The translations under genes and the position numbers were made by a program. From positions 1 to 64,000 of the forward strand of contig JAFWNM010000037.1 in assembly GCA_017510335.1 (NCBI GenBank): a stretch of DNA of 64,000 nucleotides, written 5' to 3'. Numbering within the stretch: position 1 is the stretch's first letter; every line of letters starts with the position of its first letter. Below the pieces are notes generated by a model. That model ran no database searches and was not told the DNA's origin. It saw nothing but the letters and a program-made list of their open reading frames with translations. Shown here piece after piece: positions 7,761-64,000 of this stretch. This stretch comes from Paracoccaceae bacterium. GTDB lineage: Bacteria > Pseudomonadota > Alphaproteobacteria > Rhodobacterales > Rhodobacteraceae.

Positions 7761-7975
7761 GCGCGCATTCAGACAATGTTTTCAGTGCAATGACAAGCAT
7801 CTGAATCAGGGGATGTGCGCCCCGGTCAGGTGCCGGGCGGGCATACCAATGGCAGGCACATGGCGCTGTTGCCCCATCCCTGTCGTATCACGCCCCCAAG
7901 GTGCCGCAGAACCATCCGGCCGTTTTGCGAACTGGCCGAATTGACCTTGTGCGCAACGATAGGCAAAGTCGTCGG

Positions 7976-11266: not shown

Positions 11267-11328
11267 TTTGCATCTCCTGCGTCGCCTTTAGGTGATCAGA
11301 TCAACACCCGCATTCGTGCATGGTTTTT

Positions 11329-11458: not shown

Positions 11459-11499
11459 AGAACCAGCCAGCACAGGCACTCAATCTGAAAATGCTCAAC

Positions 11500-11535
11500 C
11501 CCTAGAGCTTCTCGAACATGCGACATGCTCTAGGG
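11500..11535. terminator. Hairpin CCCTAGAGC/GCTCTAGGG between convergent genes
   Basis: Perfect 9-bp stem (11500-11508 with 11527-11535) and an 18-bp loop containing TCGAACATGCGACATG. It lies between the repeat and the end of the PopZ-like gene; the right arm includes that gene's TAG stop (11530-11532). There is no long U-tract on either strand, so termination is uncertain; an mRNA-end stabiliser or part of a short palindromic repeat is equally possible. Seventeen of 18 bases of GAGCTTCTCGAACATGCG recur at 17498-17515. Confidence 0.4.
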
Positions 11536-12264: not shown

Positions 12265-12412
12265 AGTGCCCTGCCTTGTTCCATGCCCGCCCGACCCCTG
12301 CCCTGCGCACCTTCTGGTCGGGCGCATCAGGACCACTAACGATAACTTGTCCAGCAAGTCTTAACGCCTTGTGGCTTCTCGCACAATCATTCTGTTGCGC
12401 TTTGCACCCCCC

Positions 12413-13363
12413 TTAGCGCGCCAACGGCAAGGCACTGCACCACAGGTAGCGCACCAGTGCTGCCTGTCCGCGCAACCCCGTGCGCGCATAAATACGCTTG
12501 GAATAGTTGCGCGCGGTTTCGATGGTCAGGCCCAGTTGGGCTGCTGCTCCGGCAAGGCTCGCCCCTTCGCCCAAAGCGCGGGCAAGGCGCGCTTCGGCGC
12601 GTGAAATACCCAGCGCCGCTGCAAGAAATCCCGCATCCGGCAAGGGTGTCATGGTCTGGCGCAAATATGCGACCGCCTGCCCTGCGGCCGGTTCGCCAGA
12701 CAATACCAGCATATCCAACCCCGCGCCAAGCGGGACCAGCGCAGGCGCTGCGCGGGTTCTGGCGGCACTTAGCACAGTGGCCGTATCCAGCCCACTATCG
12801 GCCAGCAAACCCGCTGCCACCCTGTCCATATCGACAACGGCAGGTCTGGTCAGGTCCAGCACCAGCGCGCCAATGCCGATACGGCGCGCAAGATCCTGCG
12901 TCTGGCGCTGCTGTGCGGTGTTCGCCTGCACCATATGCCACAGGTCCAGCGCCTGCGCGATATGCGGACCAAACCCGGCAAGACGCGCTGTGTCGGCCGC
13001 GCGAAACGCGCCCTTGTCACGGCGCAGGACCATACAGGCCGGGCCATGGGTGCAGTTCAACCCGATCGCGCGGGTATCGGCCCCCAACCACACCAGATCG
13101 CGCGCAAGTGCGCGGTCATGAAGTTCATCGCCCGAATAGACCCGCCCCGCCCGCAAACCGGCAAACACCAGCGGCAACGGCACGGCCCCCATATGCGCGG
13201 CGCTGGTTCTGTCCCAGCCCCAATAGTGCTGAGACAAGAACAGCATGGCGGCGTCCGTCTGGAAAAACGCTGCGAAGCTGCGCAGAAAAACAGGCCAGTC
13301 AAGACGATGCGCACTTGCATCGCCCAAACCGAGCAACAAGGCGGATTCTTCGGGTTCCAGCAT
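12413..13363 (-). CDS. LuxR-type helix-turn-helix transcriptional regulator
   Basis: 316-residue protein whose last 60 or so residues form a LuxR/GerE DNA-binding domain (SLAGAAAQLGLTIETARNYSKRIYARTGLRGQ). The usual VKTH core is replaced by ARNYSKRIY, a common variant in this order. The N-terminal 240 residues look like a PAS/GAF-type sensory region but contain no motif that would name a ligand. It is divergent from the P-type ATPase gene across a 200-bp gap, so it may regulate that gene or itself; this is positional inference only. Confidence 0.75.
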   Translation of the reverse strand: MLEPEESALLLGLGDASAHRLDWPVFLRSFAAFFQTDAAMLFLSQHYWGWDRTSAAHMGAVPLPLVFAGLRAGRVYSGDELHDRALARDLVWLGADTRAIGLNCTHGPACMVLRRDKGAFRAADTARLAGFGPHIAQALDLWHMVQANTAQQRQTQDLARRIGIGALVLDLTRPAVVDMDRVAAGLLADSGLDTATVLSAARTRAAPALVPLGAGLDMLVLSGEPAAGQAVAYLRQTMTPLPDAGFLAAALGISRAEARLARALGEGASLAGAAAQLGLTIETARNYSKRIYARTGLRGQAALVRYLWCSALPLAR

Positions 13364-13563
13364 AATCGACCTTCAGCGTCACAAGATGCCGCGCAGCGCG
13401 CCCCCACTCCCATATGGCAGGGTTTTCCCAGGTTACGGGCAAACCTGCGCCATGTCGATTCCCGTCATCGTGAATTCTGCTTGCGGGGTTGCGCAGGATC
13501 AAGTCAATGGCCAGCATAAGGTGCTAGATACACCAGACCACCAAACTGAAGGAATGGACACCC

Positions 13564-16215
13564 ATGCGCGATACCGGCACCCCATGGGCCACCCCCGCCA
13601 AGGATGTTCTGACACGGCTTGACAGCCGCCCCGAAGGACTGACCCCCGATGATATACGCCGAAAGCTGCAAGAGCATGGCGAAAACAGGTTGCCCGACGC
13701 CCCCCGCCCCGGCCCGCTGAAGCGCCTTGCGCGGCAGTTCAACAACCTGTTGATTCTGGTGCTGGTCGGCGCGGCAGCAATTACCGCCGTGTTGGGCCAC
13801 TGGATTGATACCGGCGTCATCATGGCAGTGGTCATCCTGAACGCGGTCATCGGTTTCGTGCAAGAAGGCCGCGCCGAAGCGGCACTGGACGCGCTGCGGG
13901 ACATGCTGGCCCCCAAGGCAAACGTCATCCGCGCAGGCCAGCGCCAAACCGTTTCAGGGGCCGAACTGGTGCCTGGCGACATTGTGCTGCTGGATGCAGG
14001 CGACAAGGTGCCAGCTGATCTGCGCTTGCTGGATGTGGCGGGCCTGTCGGTGGAAGAAGCCATTCTGACAGGCGAATCCGTGCCAGTGCGCAAATCCAAA
14101 GCCCCCGTGGACGTCAATGCCGATTTGGGGGACCGCAGCCCAATGGCGTTCAGCGGCACAATGGTGGCGGAAGGCACGGCAACAGGGGTTGTCACCGCAA
14201 CGGGCAAAAACACCGAAATCGGGCGTATCAGCACCATGATGGGGCAGGTTCAGACGCTGAAAACCCCGTTGATCCGCCAGATGGAGGTATTTGCAAAATA
14301 CCTGACCGGGTTTGTCATGGTGTTGTCAGCGGCGATTCTGGGTTTCACGCTGGCCTTCCGCGACACCCCGTTTGCCGAAGCGTTCATGATTGTCGTGGGC
14401 CTGTTTGTCGCCGCCATCCCCGAAGGGCTGCCCGCTGTGCTGACCGTCACACTGGCGATTGGCGTGCAGACCATGGCGCGGCGCAACGCCATTATCCGCC
14501 GCCTGCCCATTATCGAAACACTGGGGGCCGTGTCCACCATCTGTTCGGACAAGACAGGCACATTGACGCGCAATGAAATGATGGTGGCAACATGCGTCAC
14601 CGCGACCGGCACCGTAGCAGTAACCGGCGAGGGGTATGCGCCTGAAGGCCAGATACAGGGCGCTGACCCCGCCACGCTGGACGCCATGGCAAGGATTGCT
14701 GCGCTGTGCAACACCGCAGCGCTGGTGCAGGGCGCGCAAGGCTGGCGTGTCGAAGGCGACCCGATGGAAGGGGCGCTGCTGGCATTCGCCGCGCGCGCCG
14801 GGCGCGACCCTGACCAGCGCCCCAAACCCCGCGCCAGTATCCCGTTTGATGCGCGCTATCGCTATATGGCGGTATTGCAGGACGGGCATATCCTGCTGAA
14901 GGGCGCGCCTGAACAGGTGATCGCGCATTGTGACCGGCACCTGGGACCGGACGGCCCGCAGACGCTGGACCGCGGTTACTGGAACGACGCGGCCCATGCC
15001 ATTGCCAACAATGGCCAGCGGGTTCTGGCGCTGGCCCAGATGGCCCATGACGGCGATGATCTGACACATGAGACTGTGGCCAGGGGGCTTGTTCTGGTAG
15101 GGCTTGTCGGCCTGATTGACCCGCCGCGCGAAGAAGCGATTGCCGCTGTTGCCGAATGCCACAGTGCGGGAATTTCCGTCAAGATGATCACGGGCGACCA
15201 CGCGGGCACGGCCGCCGCCATTGGCCGCCAGATCGGGCTAAAGCAGACTGATGCGCCCCTGACGGGTGCCGAAATCGACCAGATGGACGACCCGACACTG
15301 GAAGCCGCAATCCGGCGCACCGATATTTTTGCCCGCACCAGCCCTGAACATAAATTGCGACTGGTGCAGGCGCTTCAGGCAGGCGGGGCCGTCGTGGCCA
15401 TGACCGGCGACGGGGTGAATGACGCGCCAGCGCTGAAGCGCGCGGATGCAGGCATTGCCATGGGCCAAAAAGGGTCCGAGGCCGCGCGCGAAGCGTCCGA
15501 TTTCGTGCTGGCAGACGACAATTTCGCGTCTATAGCGGAGGCCGTGAAACAAGGGCGCGCAGTCTATGCGAACCTGAAGAAAGTCATCACCTTCTTGTTG
15601 CCGGTAAATGGCGGGGAATCGATTTCGCTGATCATTGCAGTTTTGTTCGGGCTGATGCTGCCCATCACGCCACTGCAGATCCTGTGGGTGAATATGGTCA
15701 GTTCGGTGGCGCTGGCGATGTCGCTGGCCTTTGAACGCGCCGAAGCCGGGATCATGCGCCAGCCGCCCCGCGCCGCCAATGCCCCCATCATGTCGCGCTT
15801 TATTTTGTGGCGGGTTTTTCTGGTGTCCATCTTGTTTGCAGTGGGCATATTCGGCCAGTTCGGGCTGGCACAGGCGCAGGGGGCGGGGCTGGATGAAGCG
15901 CGCACGATGGCATTGAACACGCTTGTCGCAATGGAAGTGTTCTATCTGTTTTCAGTGCGCTACCGGCATGGATTCTCGGTATCATGGGAAGGGGTCAAGG
16001 GCACCCCAGCCGTGCTGATTGCAATCGCGCTTGTCGTGGTGCTGCAAGCGGGGTTCACCTATCTGCCTGTCATGCAGGGCCTGTTTGACACAACACCGCT
16101 GAGCGCGTGGCAACTGGTGCAATGTGCGCTGGCAGGCGTGGCCTTGCTGCTGGTGCTGGAATTGGACAAACACGCCGCGCGCACATGGAAGAAGCTGGGA
16201 TCGGCCGAGAGATAG
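13564..16215 (+). CDS. Cation-transporting P-type ATPase (PacL/Ca2+/Na+ type)
   Basis: 883-residue P2-type ATPase of the inner membrane. All hallmarks are present: an N-terminal cation-ATPase domain (PEGLTPDDIRRKLQEHGENRL), the actuator motif ILTGESVPV, the phosphorylation site ICSDKTGTLT with Asp329, the nucleotide-binding KGAPE, and the hinge TGDGVNDAPALKRADAGIAMG, followed by four C-terminal helices. Membrane segment 4 carries AAIPEGLPAVLTV, typical of Ca2+ or Na+/K+ pumps rather than heavy-metal pumps. An AAGGA site precedes the ATG. Which ion is moved, and in which direction, is inferred from the family. Confidence 0.92.
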   Translation: MRDTGTPWATPAKDVLTRLDSRPEGLTPDDIRRKLQEHGENRLPDAPRPGPLKRLARQFNNLLILVLVGAAAITAVLGHWIDTGVIMAVVILNAVIGFVQEGRAEAALDALRDMLAPKANVIRAGQRQTVSGAELVPGDIVLLDAGDKVPADLRLLDVAGLSVEEAILTGESVPVRKSKAPVDVNADLGDRSPMAFSGTMVAEGTATGVVTATGKNTEIGRISTMMGQVQTLKTPLIRQMEVFAKYLTGFVMVLSAAILGFTLAFRDTPFAEAFMIVVGLFVAAIPEGLPAVLTVTLAIGVQTMARRNAIIRRLPIIETLGAVSTICSDKTGTLTRNEMMVATCVTATGTVAVTGEGYAPEGQIQGADPATLDAMARIAALCNTAALVQGAQGWRVEGDPMEGALLAFAARAGRDPDQRPKPRASIPFDARYRYMAVLQDGHILLKGAPEQVIAHCDRHLGPDGPQTLDRGYWNDAAHAIANNGQRVLALAQMAHDGDDLTHETVARGLVLVGLVGLIDPPREEAIAAVAECHSAGISVKMITGDHAGTAAAIGRQIGLKQTDAPLTGAEIDQMDDPTLEAAIRRTDIFARTSPEHKLRLVQALQAGGAVVAMTGDGVNDAPALKRADAGIAMGQKGSEAAREASDFVLADDNFASIAEAVKQGRAVYANLKKVITFLLPVNGGESISLIIAVLFGLMLPITPLQILWVNMVSSVALAMSLAFERAEAGIMRQPPRAANAPIMSRFILWRVFLVSILFAVGIFGQFGLAQAQGAGLDEARTMALNTLVAMEVFYLFSVRYRHGFSVSWEGVKGTPAVLIAIALVVVLQAGFTYLPVMQGLFDTTPLSAWQLVQCALAGVALLLVLELDKHAARTWKKLGSAER

Positions 16216-52319: not shown

Positions 52320-53522
52320 TCACGCCAGCGCGCCGGCCCGCGACAGCACCGCAATTGCGCCGCGCAGTTCGGCCAGCCCGACATGACGCCCGACAAGCGG
52401 GTAGCCCGGTTGCCCGCCACGACTGCGATCGTCGGTCATGTGCAGGCCGTGATCAGGGCGGAAGGGGATATTGTCATCGGAACGCCCCAAAGCGCGGCGG
52501 CGCGCTTCTTGTTGCAACACCGCGCCAAGAAGCGCCACCATGTCCACATCGCCATCCAGATGGCCGCTTTCATAAAAGGAAACCGGCCATCCGCGCCCTT
52601 CGCGGCGCACATTGCGCAAATGCAGGAAATGCACACGATCGCCCAACCGCGCCATCATGCCCGGCAGATCGTTGTCAGGGCGCGCGCCCAGCGACCCCGA
52701 ACACAGCGTTACCCCGTTGGCTGGCAGATCGACCGCATCCAGAATGGCGGCATAATCTGCCTCGGTGGACATGACACGCGGCAACCCGAGCAGCGGAAAG
52801 GGCGGGTCGTCAGGATGACAGCACAGACGCAAGCCCAGTTCTTGCGCGACAGGCGCCACCTGTTCCAGAAAATCGACCAGATGCGCGCGCAAGCGTTGCG
52901 CATCTATGCCGCGATATAGCGACAGACAGTCCCGCACACCGTCCACTGTCAGCGCTTCGGCCGCACCCGGCAGGCCATAACCGACAGTGCGCGCCAGTTC
53001 GCTGCGGCGCGCATCTGGCATGTCGGTGAAACGCGCCTGCGCGGCCTGCATCAGTTCTGGCGCGAAGTCTGCATCAGGCCGGCGCAGGATGAACAGATCA
53101 TAGGCCGCAAAATCAACCAGATCGAACCGCATGCAACTGGACCCGTCGGCCAGCGCGTAATCGATATGCGTGCGCGTCCAGTCCAAGACTGGCATGAAAT
53201 TGTAGCAAATCACCTTCAACCCGGCATCGGCAAGGTGATGCAGGCTTTGAATCCAGTTCGCAATATGGGCACGCCAGTCACCAGTCTGGCGCTTGATATC
53301 TTCGGATACCGGCAAACTTTCGACCACACCCCAATGCAGCCCCGTGGGGCCCCCCTCCGGCCCGGCAATCAGCGCCTGGCGGGCCGCGATCTGCGCCCTT
53401 GGCCACACGTCCCCGGTGGGAATGTGATGCAGCGCCGAAACAATCGCCTTCGCACCTGTCTGGCGCACGGCCTCCAGCCTTACCGGGTCTTGTGGCCCGA
53501 ACCAACGCCAGCCTTCCTGCAT
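52320..53522 (-). CDS. uxuA: Mannonate dehydratase
   Basis: 400-residue enzyme that dehydrates D-mannonate to 2-keto-3-deoxygluconate in glucuronate catabolism. Family features: MQEGWRWFGPQDPVRLEAV, ALHHIPTGDVWP, CYNFMPVLDWTRT, LRLCCHPDDPPFPLLGLPRVMS and LHLRNVRREG, carrying the metal-binding Cys/His residues. The ATG at 53522 follows AGGAGGATGGA. It is divergent from the GntR-DctPQM genes, suggesting one regulon for uronate uptake and breakdown. Confidence 0.94.
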   Translation of the reverse strand: MQEGWRWFGPQDPVRLEAVRQTGAKAIVSALHHIPTGDVWPRAQIAARQALIAGPEGGPTGLHWGVVESLPVSEDIKRQTGDWRAHIANWIQSLHHLADAGLKVICYNFMPVLDWTRTHIDYALADGSSCMRFDLVDFAAYDLFILRRPDADFAPELMQAAQARFTDMPDARRSELARTVGYGLPGAAEALTVDGVRDCLSLYRGIDAQRLRAHLVDFLEQVAPVAQELGLRLCCHPDDPPFPLLGLPRVMSTEADYAAILDAVDLPANGVTLCSGSLGARPDNDLPGMMARLGDRVHFLHLRNVRREGRGWPVSFYESGHLDGDVDMVALLGAVLQQEARRRALGRSDDNIPFRPDHGLHMTDDRSRGGQPGYPLVGRHVGLAELRGAIAVLSRAGALA

Positions 53523-53658
53523 TCCATCCTCCTGCCTGTGTGAACGTCGCGCGCAAGGGTGCAGGCAAGCACATCGCAATCGCGGCCACAATCGCCCAAA
53601 TCAAAACTGTTGACTAGTATGGTAGATAATGCCAACAGTGGCAACAGGGAGTTTTCAC

Positions 53659-54384
53659 ATGCCGCCACTTGGACCAAGGCCAGACACACTTTTGGAAACC
53701 CAGCCATTGGGCAGCCAATTGCTGATGATCCTGCGCGGAAGAATCATCCGGGGCGAATTGCTGCCCGGAACGCGCCTGTCCGAAGCCGGGTTGGCCGCAG
53801 AACTGGGTGTCAGCCGCCAACCCATCCGCGAAGCATTCATAAAGCTGGCCGATGAAGGGCTGTTGGAAATCCGCCCCCAGCGCGCAACAATCGTGCCGAA
53901 GATATCCACCCAGATGGTGGAAGACGCGCGCTTCGTGCGCGAAGCCATCGAGGCAGATGTGATTCGCCTTGCCGCGCGCGATTTCGATGCCGGACGCATC
54001 ACGCAGCTGGATGATTTGCTTGTGGCACAGAACCGCGCCTCGGATGTGCAGGGGTTTATCGAACTGGATGACCGGTTCCACCGCCTGCTGGCCGAAGGTG
54101 TCGGGCGCGTCCACGCCTGGACCGTGATCGAAGCCCTGAAGGCACAGCTGGACAGGGTGCGCTACCTGAGTTTGCAGCAGTTCCCCAAGGCAAAGCTGGT
54201 CGAGCAGCATGCCGCCGTGGTGGACGCCATCCGCGCCCGCGACCCCAACGCCGCCGAAACGGCGATGCGCCAGCATCTGCGCGAAATCATCAGCGACCTG
54301 CCGAAAATCGCGTCCGAACGCGCAGAATTTTTCGACACAAAAACCCACGCGTCAATAGGCGCGCCAACAGCGACAGGAGGATAG
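53659..54384 (+). CDS. GntR/FCD-type transcriptional regulator
   Basis: 241 residues: an N-terminal winged helix (LSEAGLAAELGVSRQPIREAFIKLADEGLL) and a helical FCD domain with metal-ligand residues (DDRFHRLLAEG; RQHLREI). Likely repressor of the adjacent TRAP genes and of divergent uxuA, by position. The ATG at 53659 follows AGGGAG; an ATG ten codons upstream is also open. It is 1 bp from dctP, so co-transcribed. Confidence 0.88.
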   Translation: MPPLGPRPDTLLETQPLGSQLLMILRGRIIRGELLPGTRLSEAGLAAELGVSRQPIREAFIKLADEGLLEIRPQRATIVPKISTQMVEDARFVREAIEADVIRLAARDFDAGRITQLDDLLVAQNRASDVQGFIELDDRFHRLLAEGVGRVHAWTVIEALKAQLDRVRYLSLQQFPKAKLVEQHAAVVDAIRARDPNAAETAMRQHLREIISDLPKIASERAEFFDTKTHASIGAPTATGG

Positions 54385-54385
54385 T

Positions 54386-55378
54386 ATGTTGGACTTTGCC
54401 TGGACTGGAAAGATGACCACAGCCACGCTTGCAGCCGGCGTTGCCCTTTGGGGGACAACGGCGCCTGGTCAGGATTTCACACTGAATATCAACACTGCAT
54501 TATCCACATCAGACCCGCTTTATGCAGGATTGGAGGCCCTGCAGGAAAACATCGCGCAAGCGTCCGGCGGGCGTATGGAAATCGTGCTTTACCCGAATTC
54601 GCAGCTTGGCCCGGATGAAGATGTGCTGGAACAGGCACGGGCTGGCGCACCTGTGGCGGTGGTTGTGGATGGCGGGCGACTGGCTGTGTGGCAGCCCGAA
54701 TTCGGTGTGCTTGGGGCACCCTATCTGGCATCGGGCTATGACGGCATCCGCAAGGTTGTCACATCCGATATGTTCGAAGGCTGGGTGCAGGCCTTGGCCG
54801 ACAATGCCGATTTGCAGGTGCTAAGCTTCAACTGGTGGCAGGGCGAGCGGCACATGCTGACGCAGCGCCCCATCGCCACCCCAGCCGATCTGGCAGGGAT
54901 TCGCGTGCGCACCCCCGGCGCGCCCGTCTGGACCGGCACTGTCACGGCCATGGGGGCCACGCCCACCCCCCTGCCTTGGGGCGAGGTGTATTCCGCGCTG
55001 TCGGCCAATGTCATCGATGGGGCCGAGGCACAGTTTCCCGCCATTCTGGGCGCAAACCTGCACGAGGTGGTGAGCCATATCACCAAGACATCGCATATCA
55101 ACCTGATCACGGGCCTTGTGACATCCGGCCCCTGGTTCGCCAGCCTGCCAGAGGATTTGCAAGCTATCCTGCGCGAGGAATCTTTGCGCGCTGGCGATAT
55201 CGCATCCTACGGAACCCGCGATTCCCTGGAGGAGATCGAGGCCGCGCTGGTCGCAGCAGGTGTCAGCGTGGACGAAGTGGACCTGACCCCGTTTCAGGAC
55301 GCGACCGCGGTTGTCTATGACAACCTTGGATACGGCGAATTGCGCGATGTGCTGCGCGACATGGCTGCCGCAGACTGA
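54386..55378 (+). CDS. TRAP transporter solute-binding protein (DctP type)
   Basis: 330-residue periplasmic DctP-family protein with an N-terminal hydrophobic export region (MTTATLAAGVALWGTTAPGQ) and the arginine region that holds carboxylates (ATPADLAGIRVRTPGAPVW). It follows the GntR gene and AGGAGGA. With the uxuA neighbour, a uronate or related sugar acid ligand is likely (inference). Confidence 0.92.
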   Translation: MLDFAWTGKMTTATLAAGVALWGTTAPGQDFTLNINTALSTSDPLYAGLEALQENIAQASGGRMEIVLYPNSQLGPDEDVLEQARAGAPVAVVVDGGRLAVWQPEFGVLGAPYLASGYDGIRKVVTSDMFEGWVQALADNADLQVLSFNWWQGERHMLTQRPIATPADLAGIRVRTPGAPVWTGTVTAMGATPTPLPWGEVYSALSANVIDGAEAQFPAILGANLHEVVSHITKTSHINLITGLVTSGPWFASLPEDLQAILREESLRAGDIASYGTRDSLEEIEAALVAAGVSVDEVDLTPFQDATAVVYDNLGYGELRDVLRDMAAAD

Positions 55379-55403
55379 CACCCGTTGCATGGGCACGCGA
55401 AGC

Positions 55404-55434
55404 GGGTTTGCCGCCTGAACCGGGCGGCAAACCC
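55404..55434 (+). promoter_or_regulatory. Perfect 12-bp hairpin after dctP
   Basis: GGGTTTGCCGCC (55404-55415) pairs exactly with GGCGGCAAACCC (55423-55434) around a 7-base loop, 26 bp after the dctP stop. No U-tract follows, so it more likely protects the dctP transcript or attenuates read-through into dctQM than terminates fully. Confidence 0.7.
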
Positions 55435-55508
55435 CAAAACAGCAGGGCCGGCACGCGGAAGGGTGATCCGCGCAGCCGCCGCGCGCCCCGGGCGCGAAGC
55501 TGTTGACC

Positions 55509-55532
55509 ATGGGGGCCACATAAAGCCCCCAT
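55509..55532 (+). promoter_or_regulatory. Second hairpin in the dctP-dctQ gap
   Basis: ATGGGGGC (55509-55516) pairs with GCCCCCAT (55525-55532) around CACATAAA. It lies 41 bp before the dctQ start, downstream of the 12-bp hairpin; together they fill the only long gap in this operon. Confidence 0.6.
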
Positions 55533-55573
55533 CGCGGCGTCATATCTGTTCAAGAAAAAAAAGGGGGGGGCGC

Positions 55574-56071
55574 ATGCCGGAATTTTACAACAAGGCCGAA
55601 TTCGCGGTCGGCATGACGATTCTGGCCGCGATAACCGGGCTGGTTTTCAGTGCGGCAGTGATGCGTTTTTTCGGCAAACCCCTGATCTGGTCCGTTGACC
55701 TTGCGCAGCTGTTGTTCATATGGCTGTGCTTTCTGGGGGCCACGCGCGCCTTGCGCAAACGCGGGCATCTGGGAATTGATCTTCTGGTGCGCTATCTGCC
55801 CCACCGCCCGCGCCTGTGGCTGGAAACGGCTATTGCCGTTGTGTCGCTGGTTTTCCTTGGGGCGCTGATTTTCTATGGCATCCGCCTGACAATGGCCAAT
55901 CTTGCGCGTCAGTTCGGCGACAGCGGGCTAAGTTATGCATGGGTGACAGGGGCTGTGCCTTTTGGGTCGGCCATGCTGGCCGTATCGCTTCTGGCCAATC
56001 TGAACGAAGCGTGGCGAACCCCCGGCAGCCTGATCTTCACACGCACGCCAAAGGAAGCCCCCACAACATGA
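55574..56071 (+). CDS. TRAP transporter small permease (DctQ)
   Basis: 165-residue protein with four membrane helices (WSVDLAQLLFIWLCFLGATRALRKRGHLGIDLL is the family core). The ATG at 55574 (MPEFYNKAEFAVG) follows a homopolymeric A8-G8 tract that acts as its ribosome binding site. The stop overlaps dctM by 4 bp. Confidence 0.92.
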   Translation: MPEFYNKAEFAVGMTILAAITGLVFSAAVMRFFGKPLIWSVDLAQLLFIWLCFLGATRALRKRGHLGIDLLVRYLPHRPRLWLETAIAVVSLVFLGALIFYGIRLTMANLARQFGDSGLSYAWVTGAVPFGSAMLAVSLLANLNEAWRTPGSLIFTRTPKEAPTT

Positions 56072-57348
56072 CCCCGATCGCGCTTGTATTTCTGGTCTTG
56101 ATGCTGATCGGTGCCCCGGTGGCATTGGCCATTGGCATGGCAGGATTCACGTTTTTCCTGAATTCCCCGATTATGCCCATGTCCATCGGGGTGCAGAAGA
56201 TTGCCGCAGTCAGCCAAAGCTTTCCACTGCTGGCGGTGCCGTTTTTCGTACTGGCGGGGCATTTGATGAATGCAAGCGACATTACCGAACGGTTGTTCCG
56301 CTTCGCGCGCATTTCCGTCAGCTGGATGAGTGGCGGGCTGGCGCAAGTGTCCATCCTGCTGTCAACGCTGATGGGCGGGGTCAGTGGCTCGGCTGTTGCC
56401 GATGCCGCCATGCAAAGCCGCGTTGTCGGCCCGCAAATGCTGGCGCAGGGATATGGGCGTGGCTATACAGCAGCGGTAATTGCGCTAAGTTCGCTGATCA
56501 CTGCGACGATCCCCCCTTCTATCGGATTGATCCTGTATGGGTTCGTCGGGCAGGTGTCCATTGGCAGGCTGTTCATGGCCGGCATTGTGCCGGGGCTGTT
56601 GATGATGGCCTTGATGATGTGTGCCGCAGCCCTTGTCGCGCGCCGTCGCGGGTATGGCGCCGCCCCTGCCGAGGCCACAGGCGCACGCGCCCTTGCCCGC
56701 GCGGCATGGGATGCGAAATGGGCGCTGCTGTTTCCGGTGCTGTTGATGCTGGCCATCCGTGGCGGGGTTTTCACCCCGTCCGAGGTAGGGGCTTTTGCCG
56801 TGGTTTATGCAATTGCCATCGGCACGCTGGGCCACCGGGTGCTGACATGGGAAAAGCTCAAGCGCGCCTTTGGCGATGCGTTATCGGATATCGGAATGAT
56901 CATGCTGATCATCCTGATGTCGGGGATGCTGGGCTTTGCCATCATTTTCTTGCGATTGCCGCAAGAAGTGTCGGGTTTCTTGCTGAACGGGCTTTCGAAC
57001 CCTGTCGCGGTCATCACGGTGGTTTTGCTTGGATTGTTCATCGCGGGGCTGATCATCGAAAGCACGATTCTGGTTTTGTTGCTCACACCGATCCTTGTGC
57101 CTGTCGTCCAAAGCGTGGGTGTGGACCCTGTGCATTTCGGCATTCTTATGATGACGATTGTTACGCTGGGATCGATGACGCCCCCGGTCGGGGTTGCGAT
57201 GTATACGGTCTGTTCGCTGCTGAACACCCCGCTGGAAGATTACATACGCGACAGCCTGCCCTTTCTGGCCTGTGTTCTTGTGCTGATCATCATTCTTGTG
57301 GCCTTTCCGGGGCTGGTCCTGTTCCTGCCGAACCTGATGTTCGGCTGA
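56068..57348 (+). CDS. TRAP transporter large permease (DctM)
   Basis: 426-residue permease with about twelve helices and family segments FPLLAVPFFVLAGHLMNASD, LSTLMGGVSGSAVADAAMQ and IPPSIGLILYGFVGQVS. It forms the transport channel with DctQ and is fed by DctP. It ends before repeat copy C and converges with the SDR gene. Confidence 0.93.
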   Translation: MTPIALVFLVLMLIGAPVALAIGMAGFTFFLNSPIMPMSIGVQKIAAVSQSFPLLAVPFFVLAGHLMNASDITERLFRFARISVSWMSGGLAQVSILLSTLMGGVSGSAVADAAMQSRVVGPQMLAQGYGRGYTAAVIALSSLITATIPPSIGLILYGFVGQVSIGRLFMAGIVPGLLMMALMMCAAALVARRRGYGAAPAEATGARALARAAWDAKWALLFPVLLMLAIRGGVFTPSEVGAFAVVYAIAIGTLGHRVLTWEKLKRAFGDALSDIGMIMLIILMSGMLGFAIIFLRLPQEVSGFLLNGLSNPVAVITVVLLGLFIAGLIIESTILVLLLTPILVPVVQSVGVDPVHFGILMMTIVTLGSMTPPVGVAMYTVCSLLNTPLEDYIRDSLPFLACVLVLIIILVAFPGLVLFLPNLMFG

Positions 57349-57418
57349 CAGCCGCAGGCCCAAAGGGACCGGCGCCGGTTTCATATTTGCACACGCGTAT
57401 CGGGCTTTTGGCAATGTC

Positions 57419-57649
57419 GGGCCTGAAAGGGACTATCGCACTTGGCTTGAGTCCGCGCACTCGGCGGGCCGGGGTCTGCCGATCCGGCGTTATAGGGGAA
57501 GCGCTTTATCCAGGCGGTATAATCCTGGCTTCAAAGGCTTGGCACAGCTTCAGGTCATCGGCAGGCCGCGGGACGGCCCGCCGATGGTGCGGCGGCCTGC
57601 GGCCTTGATTCCGCACCGGGGCATTCCGCCAGACGTCCCCTTCAGGCCC
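57419..57649 (+). repeat. Dispersed palindromic repeat, copy C (most complete)
   Basis: 231 bp with the best-preserved inverted ends (GGCCTGAAAGGGACT at left, AGACGTCCCCTTCAGGCCC at right). The left arm (CGCACTCGGCGGGCCGGGGTCTGCCGAT) pairs imperfectly with the right arm (ATCGGCAGGCCGCGGGACGG CCCGCCGATGGTGCGG), around about 70 bp that includes a CCAGG/CCTGG mini-hairpin (57511-57529). It lies between the convergent DctM and SDR genes, in a 347-bp gap with nothing else recognisable. Confidence 0.88.
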
Positions 57650-57695
57650 AAATGCGCCCCCTCAGGCACAGGTTTCACCCCAACCGCATCAGGCA

Positions 57696-58586
57696 TCAGC
57701 GCCCCAGAACATCCCGCCAGTCATGTTGCGGATTGAACCCCAACAGCGCTTTTGCCTTGGCGTTGGAATAGAATGTCTCCTGCTCGTCCATCTGGCGCGT
57801 CAAGGGCACATCCGCATAATATTCGGCAATCAGATCCGATGTGCTGGTCGCCACAGAATGGGTGTCATTTGACACATTGAAAACCTGATATCCCAGCCCG
57901 TCAACTTGCACGCACCGCTCCACCATATGCCCCAGATCGCGCGCGTCGATATAGGCAAAGAAATTGCGCCGCCGAAGCGACGGGTTTTGCATATAGTCGG
58001 GGAATTGCGCGGCGTAGTCTTCCGGCTCGATCACGTTATTGATGCGCAAACCGTAGATATCTGCACCACTTCTGCGCTGGAAACACTGCGCTGTCGCTTC
58101 GTTGACCACCTTGGACATGGCATAGCTGTCTTCAGGAACAGTGGGGTGGTTTTCATCCAGCGGCAGGTAGTCGGGCTTGCGTTCGCCATCCGCAAAGCAC
58201 ACGCCATAAGTCGTTTCCGAGGATGCGAACACGATCTTGCACACGCCAAGCTTCAACGCGGCATCAATGACATTATAGGTGCCCAGCGTATTCACGCGGA
58301 AACATTCATTATCGCTTTTCAACAAGATACGCGGGACGGCTGCGAAATGGACGACAGCATCGAAACGAGGCACACCTGTGCCCGGGTCCAGTTCGTCAAA
58401 CCCGGCATAGCTGGACATGACGTCAAACATCTGCCCCGCATCGGTAATATCGGCAATGCGGTTATCCACACCCGCCAGCGCCAGCGGCGCAAGATCCACG
58501 TTCAGCACGCGGTGGCCCTGTTGCAGCAAATAGGCTATTGCGTGGCGCCCTGCCTTGCCAGCACCCCCAGTGAACAGAATACGCAT
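57696..58586 (-). CDS. NAD(P)-dependent SDR/epimerase-dehydratase family protein
   Basis: 296-residue extended SDR. N-terminal Rossmann motif TGGAGKAGRHAIAYLL, catalytic Ser in SSETTYG and the Tyr-x3-Lys pair (SYAMSKV) are intact. Related SDRs include uronate dehydrogenase and sugar epimerases. It is the last gene of a minus-strand operon after the Gfo/Idh/MocA gene (24-bp gap). Its role in the sulfoquinovose-like cluster, or in uronate use, is an open question. Confidence 0.85.
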   Translation of the reverse strand: MRILFTGGAGKAGRHAIAYLLQQGHRVLNVDLAPLALAGVDNRIADITDAGQMFDVMSSYAGFDELDPGTGVPRFDAVVHFAAVPRILLKSDNECFRVNTLGTYNVIDAALKLGVCKIVFASSETTYGVCFADGERKPDYLPLDENHPTVPEDSYAMSKVVNEATAQCFQRRSGADIYGLRINNVIEPEDYAAQFPDYMQNPSLRRRNFFAYIDARDLGHMVERCVQVDGLGYQVFNVSNDTHSVATSTSDLIAEYYADVPLTRQMDEQETFYSNAKAKALLGFNPQHDWRDVLGR

Positions 58587-58610: not shown

Positions 58611-59741
58611 TCACGCAGTGTCAGGTGCCGGGGCGCTGGTGTCAATGCGTCCGTCAGCGTGCAGCCGCACAGCCTGCCCTGTCAGCGCGGAATGCTGCGC
58701 GGCCAACCCCATCTGGACGGCCCACAGACCATCCGACAAGGTGACATCGACCTTGCCGCGCCCGCGCACCACATCGGCAAAGCGGGCATGCTGGTAGAAG
58801 GTTGATCCATTGTGGTCCCCTGCTTCCAGAAGCGCGGGGTCAACGGGAACAGCCATCTGGCGTGGTCCTTTGGGGCTGCGCGGGCTGACGATCAGCTGCG
58901 GGACGGGCGGCGCCCCCAGATGCGGCGGCCAGAACCGCCCCGGACCGGGCACAAGGCATTCGATGCGTGCATCGGGACCGACGGCAGTGATCTCTTCCTG
59001 GTAGCGCGCCCCTTCCGCGAACATGCACAATTCCAACATTGCCCGCGCGCCACGCGCAAAATCCACAATCACATAGGCATTGTCCCAAATGTCTGGCTGC
59101 ACGCCGTCATAGCGTTCCTCCAGATGGTTCACATCCTGCCCGCCCGACGCCATGATGCGAACCGGGTTATCATTCATAATCAACCGCATAAGGTCAAAAA
59201 AGTGACAGCATTTTTCAACCAGCGTGCCGCCGGTGTTGCGGTTGAAGCGATTCCAGTCGCCAATTTTCGGCAGAAAGGGAAAGCGGTGTTCGCGGATGCT
59301 GAGCATCTTTATACCGCCAGTCACCTGTTGGGCCTGTTGCACAAATTCTGCAACAGGCGGCATATAGCGGTATTCCATCGCAACCCAAAGCGGCGCGCCA
59401 TAGTCCAGCGCCAGCAACGTGTCGAAATGCGCAGGGTCCGTGAAGACAGGCTTTTCCACCAGCAGCGGCAGCGGGCGGTTGGCCGCGATCTGCGCCATCT
59501 GGGTGACGTGCAGGTGGTTCGGGCTGGCGATCAGCAGCGCATCCAGCGTGTCCGTGGCAAGCAGGCTGTCGATTGTGTCGTGAAACTGCGCCATGGGGGC
59601 CAGTGCCTGCGCTTGCGCGCGCATGCCCGCGTCGGGTTCAAAAATCGCGGCGACCTGTGCCCCGTCGATCAGGGCGATATTGCGCAAGTGTTCCTGCCCC
59701 ATCATGCCGCAGCCGATGATGCCGTATCGTATTTTTTCCAA
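58611..59741 (-). CDS. Gfo/Idh/MocA family protein
   Basis: 376 residues: an NAD(P)-binding Rossmann domain (RYGIIGCGMMGQEHLRNIALIDG) with the EKP motif (LLVEKPVF), and a C-terminal catalytic domain (GTLVEKCCHFFDLMRLI with the usual His). The family contains sugar oxidoreductases and also NAD-dependent glycosidases (GH109 and, for sulfoquinovosides, GH188). It sits between the GntR/UTRA regulator (11-bp gap) and the SDR. Given the Smo-like genes next door, a sulfoquinovoside-processing role is plausible but unproven. Confidence 0.85.
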   Translation of the reverse strand: MEKIRYGIIGCGMMGQEHLRNIALIDGAQVAAIFEPDAGMRAQAQALAPMAQFHDTIDSLLATDTLDALLIASPNHLHVTQMAQIAANRPLPLLVEKPVFTDPAHFDTLLALDYGAPLWVAMEYRYMPPVAEFVQQAQQVTGGIKMLSIREHRFPFLPKIGDWNRFNRNTGGTLVEKCCHFFDLMRLIMNDNPVRIMASGGQDVNHLEERYDGVQPDIWDNAYVIVDFARGARAMLELCMFAEGARYQEEITAVGPDARIECLVPGPGRFWPPHLGAPPVPQLIVSPRSPKGPRQMAVPVDPALLEAGDHNGSTFYQHARFADVVRGRGKVDVTLSDGLWAVQMGLAAQHSALTGQAVRLHADGRIDTSAPAPDTA

Positions 59742-59752: not shown

Positions 59753-60454
59753 TTATTTCAGTCTGACAGTGTAGCGAACGCGCACCGGGTCATACCATGT
59801 CCAGGACGCTTCAACGGGTGTGCCCTGGTGGCTGTGGCTGATGCGGGTGATCATGGGCAGGGGCGTGCCCGGCGGGTGGGGGAATTCCGCAGGCGCCCAG
59901 TCGGGAACCGGCCCTTGGCCCACGCTGTCCACTGCACGCGCGATGCGCAGGTTCAACCGCGTGCGGTAGAAATAATACAACGATTCTGACAATTCCGGCA
60001 CTGACAGCGTGGCGGCCTGACCTGCATCAAGCCAAATCTCCTCGACTGCGGCGACGATACCGGACAGGAAGCGCAACCGCCGGATACGGTGACCATGACT
60101 GTGGGGGCCGAAATCAGGCAATGCAGGGTCTTTGGGCAAGCGGTCAACCGACAGCACGCGCGCCTTGGGCAACCCGCCCCCGCAGGCCAGTTCCAGCCGC
60201 AAGAACGCATAGACCGAGTCTGTCTCGGCCCGCGCGCGGATGTAATTGCCAGACCCCTGCACGCGTTCCAGAAGGTGTTTTTCCTGCAACGCCGCAAGCG
60301 CCTTGCGCAGGGTGCCCACGGAAATTCCATGCGCGGCCGCCATATGGCGTTCGGGGGGCAGACGTTCCCCATCGACCAGCCGGCCCGCAGCAATATCGCG
60401 GATCAGAAGTTCTGCTATCTGCATGTGAAGCGGCAGTGATCCAGTATCAGACAT
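59753..60454 (-). CDS. GntR-family regulator with UTRA domain
   Basis: 233 residues: a winged helix (LPPERHMAAAHGISVGTLRKALAALQEKHLLERVQGSGNYI) and a C-terminal UTRA ligand domain (about 75-230). HutC-subfamily members sense sugars, sugar phosphates or amino acids. It is divergent from the SmoC-like gene (102-bp gap) and heads the minus-strand operon, so it probably controls both directions. Confidence 0.9.
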   Translation of the reverse strand: MSDTGSLPLHMQIAELLIRDIAAGRLVDGERLPPERHMAAAHGISVGTLRKALAALQEKHLLERVQGSGNYIRARAETDSVYAFLRLELACGGGLPKARVLSVDRLPKDPALPDFGPHSHGHRIRRLRFLSGIVAAVEEIWLDAGQAATLSVPELSESLYYFYRTRLNLRIARAVDSVGQGPVPDWAPAEFPHPPGTPLPMITRISHSHQGTPVEASWTWYDPVRVRYTVRLK

Positions 60455-60474: not shown

Positions 60475-60511
60475 GAAAATAAAATTGATACTCTATTGAT
60501 TTACTATTTTC
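60475..60511. promoter_or_regulatory. Candidate operator between the divergent operons
   Basis: Inverted repeat GAAAATA (60475-60481)/TATTTTC (60505-60511) with a 23-bp spacer holding two ATTGAT direct repeats (60484-60489 and 60495-60500). It lies in the A+T-rich centre of the GntR/SmoC-like gap, so it is a candidate site for the UTRA regulator and overlaps the likely promoters. Confidence 0.4.
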
Positions 60512-60556: not shown

Positions 60557-61714
60557 ATGAGCATCGTGCCCGTCACTTCGGCCGATCTGGATGGCGCAGA
60601 GGTAAGCTGGTTCGCGGCGCTGTGTTCGGATGATTACGAATTCCTGGGCGTGCCGGACGGGCGCTTGCGGTCAAGCTGGGCGCATTGTTCCAGCATTGTC
60701 AAAACGGCCGAACGCAACGGGTTTCGCAACATCTTGTGCCCGTCCAGTTTTCAGGTCGGACAGGACACGCTGTCTTTCGTGGCGGGCTGCGCGCCCATCA
60801 CCGAACATATCAATTTTCTGGCCGCAATCCGCTGCGGGGAAATGCAGCCTGTCATGCTGGCGCGCACTGTGGCGACACTGGATCATATGTTGCAGGGGCG
60901 TTTGACCCTGAATGTCATTTCGTCGGATTTCCCCGGCGAAGTTGCCGAAAGTGCGTATCGCTACAAGCGCAGCCATGAAGTGGTCGAAATCCTGCGGCAG
61001 GCATGGACACGCGAGCATATTGAGTATTCCGGCGAGATTTATCAGATCAGCAAGTTGAATGCCGATCCTGCGCGCCCCTATCAGCAATACGGCGGTCCGC
61101 TTTTGTATTTTGGCGGCTATTCCCCCGATGCGCTGGAACTGTGCGGGGCGCATTGCGATGTCTACCTGATGTGGCCCGAACCCAAAGAGGTTCTTGCCCA
61201 GCGCATGCGCGATGTTCACGCCCGCGCACAGGCCCATGGCCGCACGCTGGATTACGGGCTGCGCGTGCATGTCATCGTGCGCGACACCGAGGCCGAGGCG
61301 CGGGATTATGCCGAACATATCGCCAGCAAGCTGGATGACGAATACGGCAAGCTGATCCGCGAGCGCGCGCATGACAGCATCAGCCTGGGTGTGGCGCATC
61401 AGGCCCGCGCGCGCGAACTGGCCGACAAGTTCGGCTACGCGGAACCCAACCTGTGGACAGGCGTGGGGCGCGCGCGGTCCGGCTGCGGTGCCGCGCTGGT
61501 GGGGTCGGTGGATCAGGTCCTGAGCAAGCTGGAAGACTACCGCGCCATGGGCATCCGCGCCTTCATCCTGTCAGGATACCCCCATCATGACGAAGCCGAC
61601 ATTTTCGGCCAGAAGGTTATGCCGCATCTGAAAACCGTGTCACTGCCGCATGAATATGGCCGCGTGCCCGCCCAGACCCCTGCAACCCCCCTTGGAACCG
61701 GAGAGCGTCGCTGA
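60557..61714 (+). CDS. LLM-class flavin-dependent monooxygenase, SmoC-like (probable sulfoquinovose monooxygenase)
   Basis: 385-residue bacterial-luciferase-like enzyme of the SsuD branch, which uses FMNH2 and O2 to cleave C-S bonds of sulfonates with release of sulfite. Family segments: YQVGQDTLSFVAG-like FQVGQDTLSFVAGCAPIT, ARTVATLDHMLQGRLTLNVISSD, LLYFGGYSPDALELCG, GYPHHDEADIFG. The immediate neighbours, an aldo/keto reductase and a flavin reductase, reproduce the Smo trio, so sulfoquinovose is the best substrate guess, ahead of simple alkanesulfonates. The ATG at 60557 follows GGAG; an ATG 12 bases upstream is also possible. Confidence 0.82.
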   Translation: MSIVPVTSADLDGAEVSWFAALCSDDYEFLGVPDGRLRSSWAHCSSIVKTAERNGFRNILCPSSFQVGQDTLSFVAGCAPITEHINFLAAIRCGEMQPVMLARTVATLDHMLQGRLTLNVISSDFPGEVAESAYRYKRSHEVVEILRQAWTREHIEYSGEIYQISKLNADPARPYQQYGGPLLYFGGYSPDALELCGAHCDVYLMWPEPKEVLAQRMRDVHARAQAHGRTLDYGLRVHVIVRDTEAEARDYAEHIASKLDDEYGKLIRERAHDSISLGVAHQARARELADKFGYAEPNLWTGVGRARSGCGAALVGSVDQVLSKLEDYRAMGIRAFILSGYPHHDEADIFGQKVMPHLKTVSLPHEYGRVPAQTPATPLGTGERR

Positions 61715-62607
61715 TGGAAAAAATAGCGCTGACCCCTGATCTGGCCCTGTCGCGGCTGGTCTATGGAATGTGGCGTCTGGGGGATGATGCCGACACCAGC
61801 CCCGCCCATGTTCAGGCCAAGGTTGAAGCCTGCCTGCAGCAGGGCATAACCACGATGGATCAGGCCGATATTTACGGCGGCTATACAGCTGAAGCAATTT
61901 TTGGCGCCGCGCTGCGCCAAGCCCCGCATTTGCGTGACCAGATCCAGATTGTCACCAAATGCGACATCATAGCCCCTGCAGGCCGGCATTCCGGCGCACG
62001 GGTAAAATATTATGACACCAGCGCCGCGCATATTTCCGCGTCAGTTGAGGCCAGCTTGCGCGACATGGCCACGGACCATATCGATGTGTTGTTGATCCAT
62101 CGTCCTGATCCGCTGATGAACCCCGACGAAACCGGCGCGGAACTGGACCGGCTGGTGACCAGTGGCAAGGTCCGCGCGGTCGGTGTGTCGAATTTCCGGC
62201 CCTTCGACATGGACTTGCTGCAATCGCGCATGTCCACACGTTTGGTCACCAACCAGATTGAAATCAGTCTGATGGCACATGACGCGCTGACAAACGGGGA
62301 CCTGGCCTATCTGCATCAGCACAAGATCGCGCCCATGGCCTGGAGTCCCCTGGCAGGGGGCGCGTTGCAAACCGCTGCCCCTGACGAGTTGCGCGCGCGG
62401 CTGGAAGCCTTGGGGGCAGAGGCAAATGCAGATTGGAGCGCGGTGGCCATTGCATGGCTGCTGCACCATCCGGCAGGCATTTTGCCGGTTCTGGGCACCA
62501 ATAGCCTGGGGCGTATTGCGCGTATATCGGACGCGCTGCGCGTTCCCATGGACCGCCAGACATGGTTCGAGCTGTATACGCTGGCGCGCGGGCAAGAGGT
62601 TGCATGA
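61714..62607 (+). CDS. Aldo/keto reductase, SmoB-like (probable 6-oxoglucose reductase)
   Basis: 297-residue AKR of the YdhF/SmoB type. The catalytic tetrad is visible: Asp49 (TTMDQADIYGG), Tyr54, Lys82 (VTKCD) and His129 (LLIHRPDP), with the NADPH-binding VGVSNFRP and PMAWSPLAGG segments. In the Smo pathway this enzyme reduces 6-oxoglucose to glucose. Its ATG overlaps the last base of the SmoC-like stop, and its stop overlaps the flavin reductase start, so the three are coupled. The assignment is from family and context. Confidence 0.85.
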   Translation: MEKIALTPDLALSRLVYGMWRLGDDADTSPAHVQAKVEACLQQGITTMDQADIYGGYTAEAIFGAALRQAPHLRDQIQIVTKCDIIAPAGRHSGARVKYYDTSAAHISASVEASLRDMATDHIDVLLIHRPDPLMNPDETGAELDRLVTSGKVRAVGVSNFRPFDMDLLQSRMSTRLVTNQIEISLMAHDALTNGDLAYLHQHKIAPMAWSPLAGGALQTAAPDELRARLEALGAEANADWSAVAIAWLLHHPAGILPVLGTNSLGRIARISDALRVPMDRQTWFELYTLARGQEVA

Positions 62608-63125
62608 TGGCCGATGGCGCATTGATGCCCCCCAAGGAATTCGTGCCCGGACGCGATAGCACGCGCCCTTTTCGGGATGCCTTGGGCTGTTTTGCGACCG
62701 GGGTTACGCTTGTCACAATCGCAGGCAAGGACGGCCCCATGGGGTTTGCCGCCAATAGTTTCGCCGCCGTGTCGCTGGACCCGCCGCTGGTGTTGTGGTC
62801 GCCCGCGAAGTCATCGCGCCGCTTTGCGCAATATGTGGGCGCGCGCCATTACGCAATTCACGTCCTGCCCCGTGACGGGCAGGATTTGCTGGCGCGTTTT
62901 GCCCGCGACGGTGCGGGGTTTGACGGGTTGGCACACCGGCACAATGCCGAAAATGTGCCGGTGCTGGATCATGCGCTGGCGCGGTTCGATTGCGTTCAAT
63001 ACGCCACGCATGACGGCGGGGACCATGTCATCATCGTAGGAAAAGTGCTGCGGGCGGCGCATCGGGGGGGTGCGCCGCTTGTGTTCAGCCAGGGGGGCTA
63101 CGGCACTTTCGGCCCGTTAGACTGA
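62604..63125 (+). CDS. Flavin reductase family protein, SmoA-like
   Basis: 173-residue flavin reductase-like FMN-binding protein (split barrel): FRDALGCFATGVTLVTI, GFAANSFAAVSLDPPLVLWSPAKSS and FDCVQYATHDGGDHVIIVGKV are family-typical. It would supply FMNH2 to the SmoC-like monooxygenase. The ATG at 62604 overlaps the AKR stop (ATGA); 62607 is the alternative. It belongs to the operon with the TRAP genes downstream. Confidence 0.88.
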   Translation: MMADGALMPPKEFVPGRDSTRPFRDALGCFATGVTLVTIAGKDGPMGFAANSFAAVSLDPPLVLWSPAKSSRRFAQYVGARHYAIHVLPRDGQDLLARFARDGAGFDGLAHRHNAENVPVLDHALARFDCVQYATHDGGDHVIIVGKVLRAAHRGGAPLVFSQGGYGTFGPLD

Positions 63126-63180
63126 CATAGTGACAGATGGCCTGACACTGACGGGCCAAGCAAAGGGAGGGGGGCGAAAC

Positions 63181-63771
63181 ATGCGCATGCTTATCGCGCT
63201 GTCAGAACTGCTGGCAGTGGTAAATTCGGCTACCCTGACCCTGGGGCGCTGGCTGGGGGCTGTGTGCATCCTGCTGATGGTGTGTTTCATTCTGACGCAA
63301 GTGTTTTGCCGCTATGTGCTGGGCAGCGCCCTGCCCTGGCCAGAAGAAGCGTCGCGGTTTCTGATGCTGTGGTCTGCAGGGCTGATGATCGGCACGGCCT
63401 ACCGGCGCGGTGGTTTCGTGGCAATCGAACTTCTGACAATTCTGCTGCCGCGGCTGCTGCGCCATGTGCTGACGCTGGTGCTGTTGTCATTGGCGATGAT
63501 CATTTTGTGGAAGGCATGGCAGATTGGCCTGCGCGAAGTCACCGGCCTGGCGGGCCGGTTCGGCACTGACAGCCTGAATGTGCCCACAAGCCTTGATCTG
63601 TCCACATGGCGCAAGGTGCCCAAGGGCTGGCAGATGATGTCCATGCTGGTGGGAATTGGCGCATTGATGGCCGTGTCAGTGGAACTGATGCTGCGCGAAA
63701 TCATCGCCCTTCTGGGGCGCGCTGACGATTTGCCGGAAATCACCGATCAGGTCACTTTGGGGGCGGAATGA
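63181..63771 (+). CDS. TRAP transporter small permease (DctQ)
   Basis: 196-residue four-helix protein with the family core PWPEEASRFLMLWSAGLMIGTAYRRGG. The ATG at 63181 follows GGGAGGGGG; an earlier in-frame start is weaker. It lies 55 bp after the flavin reductase gene, in the same direction, so the TRAP system is likely co-transcribed with the Smo-like enzymes. It differs from the DctQ at 55574. Confidence 0.9.
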   Translation: MRMLIALSELLAVVNSATLTLGRWLGAVCILLMVCFILTQVFCRYVLGSALPWPEEASRFLMLWSAGLMIGTAYRRGGFVAIELLTILLPRLLRHVLTLVLLSLAMIILWKAWQIGLREVTGLAGRFGTDSLNVPTSLDLSTWRKVPKGWQMMSMLVGIGALMAVSVELMLREIIALLGRADDLPEITDQVTLGAE

Positions 63772-63772
63772 C

Positions 63773-64000
63773 ATGCTAAGCTTTTTTCTGCCGGTATTTC
63801 TTGTCTTTCTGTTTCTGGGCCTGCCTGTATTCTTCGCGCTTCTGGCCGCGCCGGGACTGCTGCTGTGGGCGGCGGGAATGGAACGCGATATCACGCTGCT
63901 ATATCGCAATGTCTATACCGGGATGGACAGTTTCCCGCTGATGGCGATACCGTTCTTCATGCTGGCGGGGGAATTGATGAACCGTTCCGGCATCACCTTG
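63773..64000 (+). CDS. TRAP transporter large permease (DctM), 5' part
   Basis: 76 codons before the window ends: MLSFFLPVFLVFLFLGLPVFF, then the family segment DSFPLMAIPFFMLAGELMNRSG. It starts 1 bp after the small permease stop. The binding protein that would complete this TRAP system was not found in the window and is expected beyond it. Confidence 0.9.
   Translation, partial: MLSFFLPVFLVFLFLGLPVFFALLAAPGLLLWAAGMERDITLLYRNVYTGMDSFPLMAIPFFMLAGELMNRSGITL

Follow-up and report, generated by a model that had tools for sequence, protein, structure and literature searches.

Here, we describe a locus for the use of sulfoquinovose (SQ) in a 64,000-nucleotide stretch of DNA from a Paracoccaceae bacterium (hereafter the window; bases 1–64000 of the 89.9-kb contig C33, in a 3.6-Mb genome of 43 contigs). 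It is a sulfo-SMO (or sulfo-ASMO) locus, a type that is widespread in alphaproteobacteria. We consider it very probable that its SQ monooxygenase pathway and its GH188 sulfoquinovosidase are served by a tripartite ATP-independent periplasmic (TRAP) importer that takes up SQ or a sulfoquinovosyl glycoside (SQGro), and that this importer has been broken here by an insertion. It also appears likely that a dedicated TRAP family imports SQ glycosides across alphaproteobacteria, as a plug-in that accompanies GH188 in both oxygenolytic and sulfoglycolytic clusters and has repeatedly been exchanged with ATP-binding cassette (ABC) importers. SQ is a sulfo-sugar of plants and algae, some 10 billion tons of which are produced each year (PMC10755693).

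The initial annotation described an SmoC-like luciferase-like monooxygenase (LLM), an SmoB-type aldo/keto reductase (AKR), and a flavin reductase in overlapping frames, followed by DctQ and DctM, and the open reading frame (ORF) map and Pfam agree with it (Table 1). From smoC through smoB and smoA to dctQ, neighboring ORFs on the forward strand overlap or sit a few bases apart, and Pfam agrees with all four complete genes. In phmmer searches of solved structures, SmoC matches 7olf (5.7e-218) and 7oh2 (8.9e-213), which we take to be SmoC (the depositors' labels are methanesulfonate sulfonatase and alkanesulfonate monooxygenase), followed by SsuD (1nqk, 6.8e-59). SmoB matches 7bby (5.1e-139), presumably SmoB itself (deposited as an aryl-alcohol dehydrogenase), ahead of YdhF (8e-65). 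As judged from these matches, the locus is of the sulfo-SMO kind, with an SmoC-kind SQ monooxygenase and an adjoining SmoB-type AKR. The predicted orthology of SmoC and SmoB to these solved proteins argues for oxygenolytic desulfonation of SQ, the chemistry put forward in the initial annotation. In that pathway, SQ yields sulfite and 6-dehydroglucose, and the latter is converted to glucose (PMC9594981). The Agrobacterium smo cluster described in the same paper has in common with the locus an SQ monooxygenase, a 6-dehydroglucose reductase, often a flavin reductase, and sulfite and glucose as (here predicted) products, but it has an ABC transporter for SQGro and a separately reported sulfoquinovosidase where we find TRAP and GH188.

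A sulfoquinovosidase had been expected downstream; such a gene exists, but it lies upstream on the opposite strand. Among solved structures, its product matches 8zn9 (1.5e-165), 8qc2 (3.1e-117), and 8qc3 (3e-115) by phmmer, and we take the last two to be SqgA. SQ is contacted in ArSqgA by K107, Y136, R166, L170, K172, E189, H193, and H321, with R166, L170 (via its backbone), and K172 binding the sulfonate (PMC10755693). All eight contacts are matched here, by K97, Y124, R153, L157, K159, E176, H180, and H310, in a pairwise alignment that is broken between some sites by one- or two-residue gaps and in which positions were partly counted by eye. On this alignment, the protein is a GH188 NAD+-dependent sulfoquinovosidase. 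Its presence narrows the "sulfoquinovose or other sulfonate" of the initial annotation to SQ and its glycosides. According to PMC10755693, which defined GH188, the family is near-universal in Roseobacter-clade sulfo-SMO clusters, and we find a homologue in 80/80 SmoC loci from named genomes (the best 80 of at least 583 confirmed relatives in that collection). No signal peptide was seen by eye in the GH188 protein, which makes import of the intact glycoside probable. The sole GH31 match of the genome (C23:43814, PF01055) was rejected as a sulfoquinovosidase here; its surroundings resemble, by eye, a glucuronide locus (L110, C23:36001-54000) comprising GH2, UxuA, GntR, TRAP, and the GH31 protein.

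TRAP genes akin to dctQMP of this locus follow smoA in 41 of the 80 named loci, and all three are found in 38; in L019, L062, and L065, contigs end early and at least one TRAP gene was not found. Because the smo genes precede all three TRAP genes in those 38 loci, the grouping is not due to chance. An ABC importer resembling the one in Roseinatronobacter L004 is present in 17 loci, and four are too short to judge; these importer labels were given by tblastn and depend on the identity thresholds chosen. We mapped the labels on a tree of SmoC relatives without SsuD (92 rows, built by a quick method with support from the SH-like approximate likelihood ratio test, SH-aLRT, only; L090–L093, taken as duplicates, and the partial L102 were left out). 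TRAP and ABC labels change six times, at least three of them forced by well-supported branches, compared with 20.5 changes in shuffled data. The two importers have therefore been swapped repeatedly, near relatives included. Within the genus of the window, 14 of 37 genomes have an SmoC match at 1e-100; the congener G003 carries the same TRAP with an uninterrupted dctM, and G012, G018, G024, and G029 carry an ABC importer. The ABC binding protein of these congeners has no match in this genome, a weak negative, though the query does find the congeners' own copies.

We find the same association in a family sample of 295 genomes drawn evenly (SmoC at E ≤ 1e-120, DctP at E ≤ 1e-60). SmoC is present in 123 and DctP in 103, with both in 75 (Fisher 1.5e-15, relatedness ignored). 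In 70 of these 75 genomes, dctP starts 3.2–7.1 kb behind the start of smoC, in the same orientation. The five exceptions are four genomes with smoC and dctP on separate contigs and the present one, where the spacing is 12.6 kb because of a Mu-like insertion. The DctP of another TRAP system in the window (TRAP#1) served as a small control: it was matched in 18/295 genomes, with SmoC in three of the 17 others and never on the same contig (0/17).

DctP also occurs in 28 genomes without an SmoC hit. In 18 of these, GH188, an SQ-isomerase-like gene, and a PfkB kinase lie within about 8 kb of dctP, and 16 of the 18 loci additionally have a LacD-like aldolase. Five more of the 28 have smo genes, but SmoC itself is missing, split, or not on the contig, and one has GH188 alone. 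The sulfoglycolysis-type arrangement is exemplified by L134 (G231:C1), where positions 5432-15784 encode PfkB, a DeoC/LacD aldolase, Fucose_iso_C, GFO_IDH_MocA, and aldose epimerase proteins together with a TRAP of this family. The isomerase has a sole NCBIfam hit, sulfoquinovose isomerase SftI (2.5e-77), below the cut-off. We read L134-like clusters, from their gene content, as clusters for sulfoglycolysis of the Embden-Meyerhof-Parnas (EMP) type, with L125 and L139 as weaker cases. Compared with the smo operon, L134 retains GH188 and the TRAP family (DctP 62%) and has the SQ-isomerase-like gene, PfkB kinase, and LacD-like aldolase in place of smoCBA. Because smo and sulfoglycolysis-type clusters have in common the sulfosugar, GH188, and TRAP, SQ or SQ glycosides are the likely ligands of this TRAP.

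Two atypical loci were also noted. In L131 (G203:C14), dctQMP comes directly after GH188, GntR, and an ATTGAT repeat (positions 3653-8913), with no smoCBA, and the genome has no SmoC match at 1e-30. In L122 (G100:C37), positions 7853-9722 hold smoB, smoA, GntR, and GH188, with a gap where smoC would be expected between smoB and GntR; no SmoC match was found in this genome at 1e-30 either, which we read as loss or replacement of the monooxygenase.

Several observations weigh against SQ uptake by this TRAP or against parts of the proposed pathway. SmoC occurs without a match to this DctP in 48 of its 123 genomes, neither a TRAP nor an ABC importer was found within the fetched sequence of 18/80 named loci, and neither pathway is near dctP in four of the 28 DctP-only genomes. 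In L125 and L139 (2/18), the aldolase was not found and the TRAP genes are on the opposite strand. GH188 and TRAP are also not alone in recurring across both cluster types, as a cytochrome c peroxidase-like gene does so too (in Ruegeria sp. TM1040 and, by eye, in L134). The best solved match of DctP reaches just 1.9e-34, and no molecule name among its best 60 of 88 solved matches denotes a sulfosugar binder. At the enzyme level, SmoA is assigned by family and position, and its best NCBIfam model, FerA, is below cut-off; its nearest solved relative is 4xhy (2.1e-42), and homologues are present in related loci. The YeiH-type protein, our candidate sulfite exporter, scores below the cut-off of NCBIfam TIGR00698 and has homologues in just 15 of the 80 named loci.

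The Smo enzymes might thus be real and the TRAP a mere neighbor that imports another sulfonate, a hexuronate, or an organic acid. The 48 SmoC genomes without this DctP fit such a neighbor, as do the distant solved relatives of DctP, which include an isethionate-binding DctP (8t9t, 1.4e-25) and sialic-acid binders. Against it stand the fixed place of dctP behind smoC in 70/75 genomes, the 18 further genomes with dctP near a GH188 sulfoglycolysis-type cluster, and the L131 arrangement, in which the GH188/GntR/repeat unit leads directly into dctQMP with smoCBA missing. We regard the neighbor scenario as unlikely. The ligand is not provable from sequence alone, because the nearest solved relatives of DctP are distant; SQ or its glycoside is the most likely one on the genomic context. 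The TRAP is in any case one importer option among several, given the 48/123 SmoC genomes without a DctP match, the 17/80 loci with ABC importers, and the 18/80 with neither.

Similar gene orders can be seen in existing annotations. Of 24 plasmid records with an SmoC match, we inspected those of Ruegeria sp. TM1040 and Roseicitreum antarcticum, and both have Gfo/Idh/MocA-GntR, then LLM-AKR-flavin reductase-DctQMP, plus a "putative sulfate exporter". On the TM1040 megaplasmid (TM1040_RS02240-RS02185), this is the order of the present locus, with the exporter further on; dctM is annotated as a single gene, and Dabb, TPR, and cytochrome c peroxidase genes lie between dctP and the exporter. The annotation places TRAP genes in this position without labeling them a sulfosugar importer. 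A cytochrome c peroxidase-like gene lies behind dctP in L145:15843-17072 (TM1040, annotated), L134:8628-10445, and L131:9696-11576 (CXXCH by eye).

TRAP systems for C2/C3 sulfonates are known, such as TauKLM and HpsKLM. The isethionate-binding DctP likewise represents DctP-DctQ-DctM uptake of a sulfonate, but of the C2/C3 kind, and it is only distantly related to the DctP described here. Uptake of SQ or its glycosides has been described via ABC systems (PMC12421959, which names ABC transporters for SQ uptake, and PMC9594981). We found no TRAP transporter in the available passages of PMC13372026, PMC12890257, and PMC9594981, and the main text of PMC10755693, as distinct from its figures and supplement, contains no word starting with "transport" or "importer". 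Compared with the Roseobacter-clade clusters with GH188 SqgA in that paper, GH188 is common to both, and the TRAP link is added here. No link between TRAP and SQ appeared in the titles and abstracts of the open literature searched, a coverage that excludes key pathway studies. If our assignment is correct, an SQ-glycoside TRAP would be the first TRAP assigned to a sulfosugar, so far as the literature searched shows. A TRAP family marking SQ loci would also give metagenome surveys an uptake marker to search for, and offer a ready means to assay binding. Transport by TRAP systems draws on ion gradients (often of Na+), which would suit saline habitats.

We propose that periplasmic DctP would capture SQGro or free SQ, which DctQM would then import. 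In the cytoplasm, GH188 with NAD+ would free SQ, as its orthology and aligned residues suggest. SmoA is predicted to supply reduced flavin mononucleotide (FMNH2), with which SmoC and O2 would cut the C-S bond to give 6-dehydroglucose and sulfite, and SmoB would reduce 6-dehydroglucose to glucose, as published for homologues of these enzymes. Sulfite may then exit via the YeiH-type protein or be oxidized. In the sequenced strain, the Mu-like element most likely leaves the importer dead, and it probably cuts off dctP and yeiH from the operon promoter.

Reading past position 64000 revealed the TRAP binding protein gene dctP that was to be expected there, and no gene set for a different substrate. 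Genes for DctP, DctQ, and DctM are thus all present, and that for DctM is interrupted. The first part of dctM is 102/117 (87%) identical to the DctM of L008, and residues 115-430 are 84% identical (tblastn). Between the two parts lies an element with TG..CA ends and a 4-bp ATGT duplication on both flanks; removing it in silico yields an open dctM frame of 429 codons that is colinear with the G003 gene. Proteins encoded by the element are a repressor-like protein, a transposase, an AAA protein, GemA, a late activator, gpT, and an I protein, with Pfam hits to GemA, Mu-like_gpT, and Mu-like_Pro and a transposase hit to PHROG 310 (3e-37). By its Mu-type genes, TG..CA ends, and target duplication, it is a Mu-like transposable phage; phage Mu itself duplicates 5 bp of target. 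We take it to be shortened, because it spans only 8.1 kb and no tail gene is among the eight proteins scanned. The full element is single-copy in the genome, and none of 50,697 phage records matches its transposase by tblastn at 1e-5. The head genes gpT and I directly follow the late activator, in an order reversed relative to that in Mu. Two contigs (C11:6-104 and C17:6-104) start with sequence 82% like element positions 8010-8108, near its right end, and perhaps hold another Mu-like element.

Because the element splits dctM, uptake by this TRAP has probably been lost in the sequenced strain. The genome has 31 DctM matches, two of which are the halves of the split gene, and the best other is 48% identical. 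The proposal in the initial annotation that a TRAP takes the place of the ABC importer is therefore retained for the locus, but not for uptake by this organism; the importer is, from the interrupted frame, probably inactive. The genes for SmoC, SmoB, SmoA, and GH188 are uninterrupted. There is a small chance that the interruption is an assembly artifact or holds for only a minority of the cultured cells, with the operon whole in most, as the assembly is a 43-contig draft and the two contig starts resemble the stretch near the right end of the element. The clean TG..CA ends, the 4-bp duplication at both junctions, the open empty site, and a 20-kb stretch free of N argue instead for a genuine insertion.

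It is extremely improbable that the monooxygenase serves general SsuD-type alkanesulfonate desulfonation for sulfur scavenging: it belongs to the same superfamily and SsuD is its best NCBIfam model, but that match reaches 239 bits against a model cut-off of 518.2, phmmer gives 726.8 bits to 7olf versus 203.1 to SsuD, and the AKR and GH188 partners suit a sulfosugar, not simple alkanesulfonates. The comparison with the SmoC and SsuD clades called for in the initial annotation thus favors SmoC by score, and a grouping away from SmoC was not seen in it.

We also find a candidate regulatory site. The intergenic stretch between the GntR gene and smoC holds AATTGATACTCTATTGATTTAC, and the corresponding pattern, derived from 20 aligned intergenic regions, matches nowhere else in the window (0.00 matches expected); across the entire genome, allowing up to two mismatches, this is again its sole match. 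The 200 bp upstream of smoC contain exact ATTGAT-N5-ATTGAT in 63/80 named loci, and a relaxed form in 76/80; mononucleotide shuffles yielded it in 0/100 cases per locus. The repeat also precedes the gene for the ABC binding protein in L004 (17398-17414, - strand) and dctQ in L131. Most of the 80 named loci have a GntR homologue close to smoC; none was seen in L067. The repeat is a candidate operator, at which the GntR protein probably acts.

Table 1. Features of the sulfoquinovose locus and of its continuation beyond the window.
Feature	Position	Strand	Evidence
GH188 NAD+-dependent sulfoquinovosidase (predicted), SqgA-like, Gfo/Idh/MocA fold	58611..59741	-	phmmer and aligned residues
GntR/UTRA-family regulator, divergent from smoC	59753..60454	-	Pfam GntR 4.4e-16, UTRA 6.8e-17
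Direct repeat AATTGATAC..TATTGATTTAC, ATTGAT x2 spaced 11 bp, candidate regulator site/promoter element	60483..60504	+	conservation
smoC, FMNH2-dependent sulfoquinovose monooxygenase (predicted); alternative ORF start 60545	60557..61714	+	phmmer
smoB, aldo/keto reductase, 6-dehydroglucose to glucose (predicted)	61714..62607	+	phmmer
smoA, flavin reductase; start perhaps near 62604	62562..63125	+	Pfam Flavin_Reduct 2.1e-31
dctQ, TRAP small permease	63130..63771	+	Pfam DctQ 1.3e-18
dctM, start of first part; 228 bases inside the window, continuing to 64116	63773..64000	+	tblastn
Mu-like element interrupting dctM (8142 bp)	64117-72258, past window		junction analysis, Pfam, PHROGs
dctM, remainder	72259-73208, past window		Pfam DctM
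dctP	73205-74296, past window		Pfam DctP
YeiH-type membrane protein, putative exporter	74414-75448, past window		PF03601 1.2e-59

A sulfite exporter had been anticipated past position 64000, and the YeiH-type gene is a candidate: it scores above the cut-off for PF03601 and below that for TIGR00698. Genes on the other side of the locus were rejected as members of the operon. The DctP of TRAP#1 (54386-57348) shares a contig with SmoC nowhere but in the window, the epimerase (57696-58586) matches nothing in the 80 loci at 1e-10, and the UxuA gene (52320-53591) indicates hexuronate use. Together with a GntR-type regulator (by eye), UxuA, TRAP#1, and the epimerase-like dehydrogenase occupy positions 52320-58586 of the window, a probable hexuronate locus beside the smo operon.

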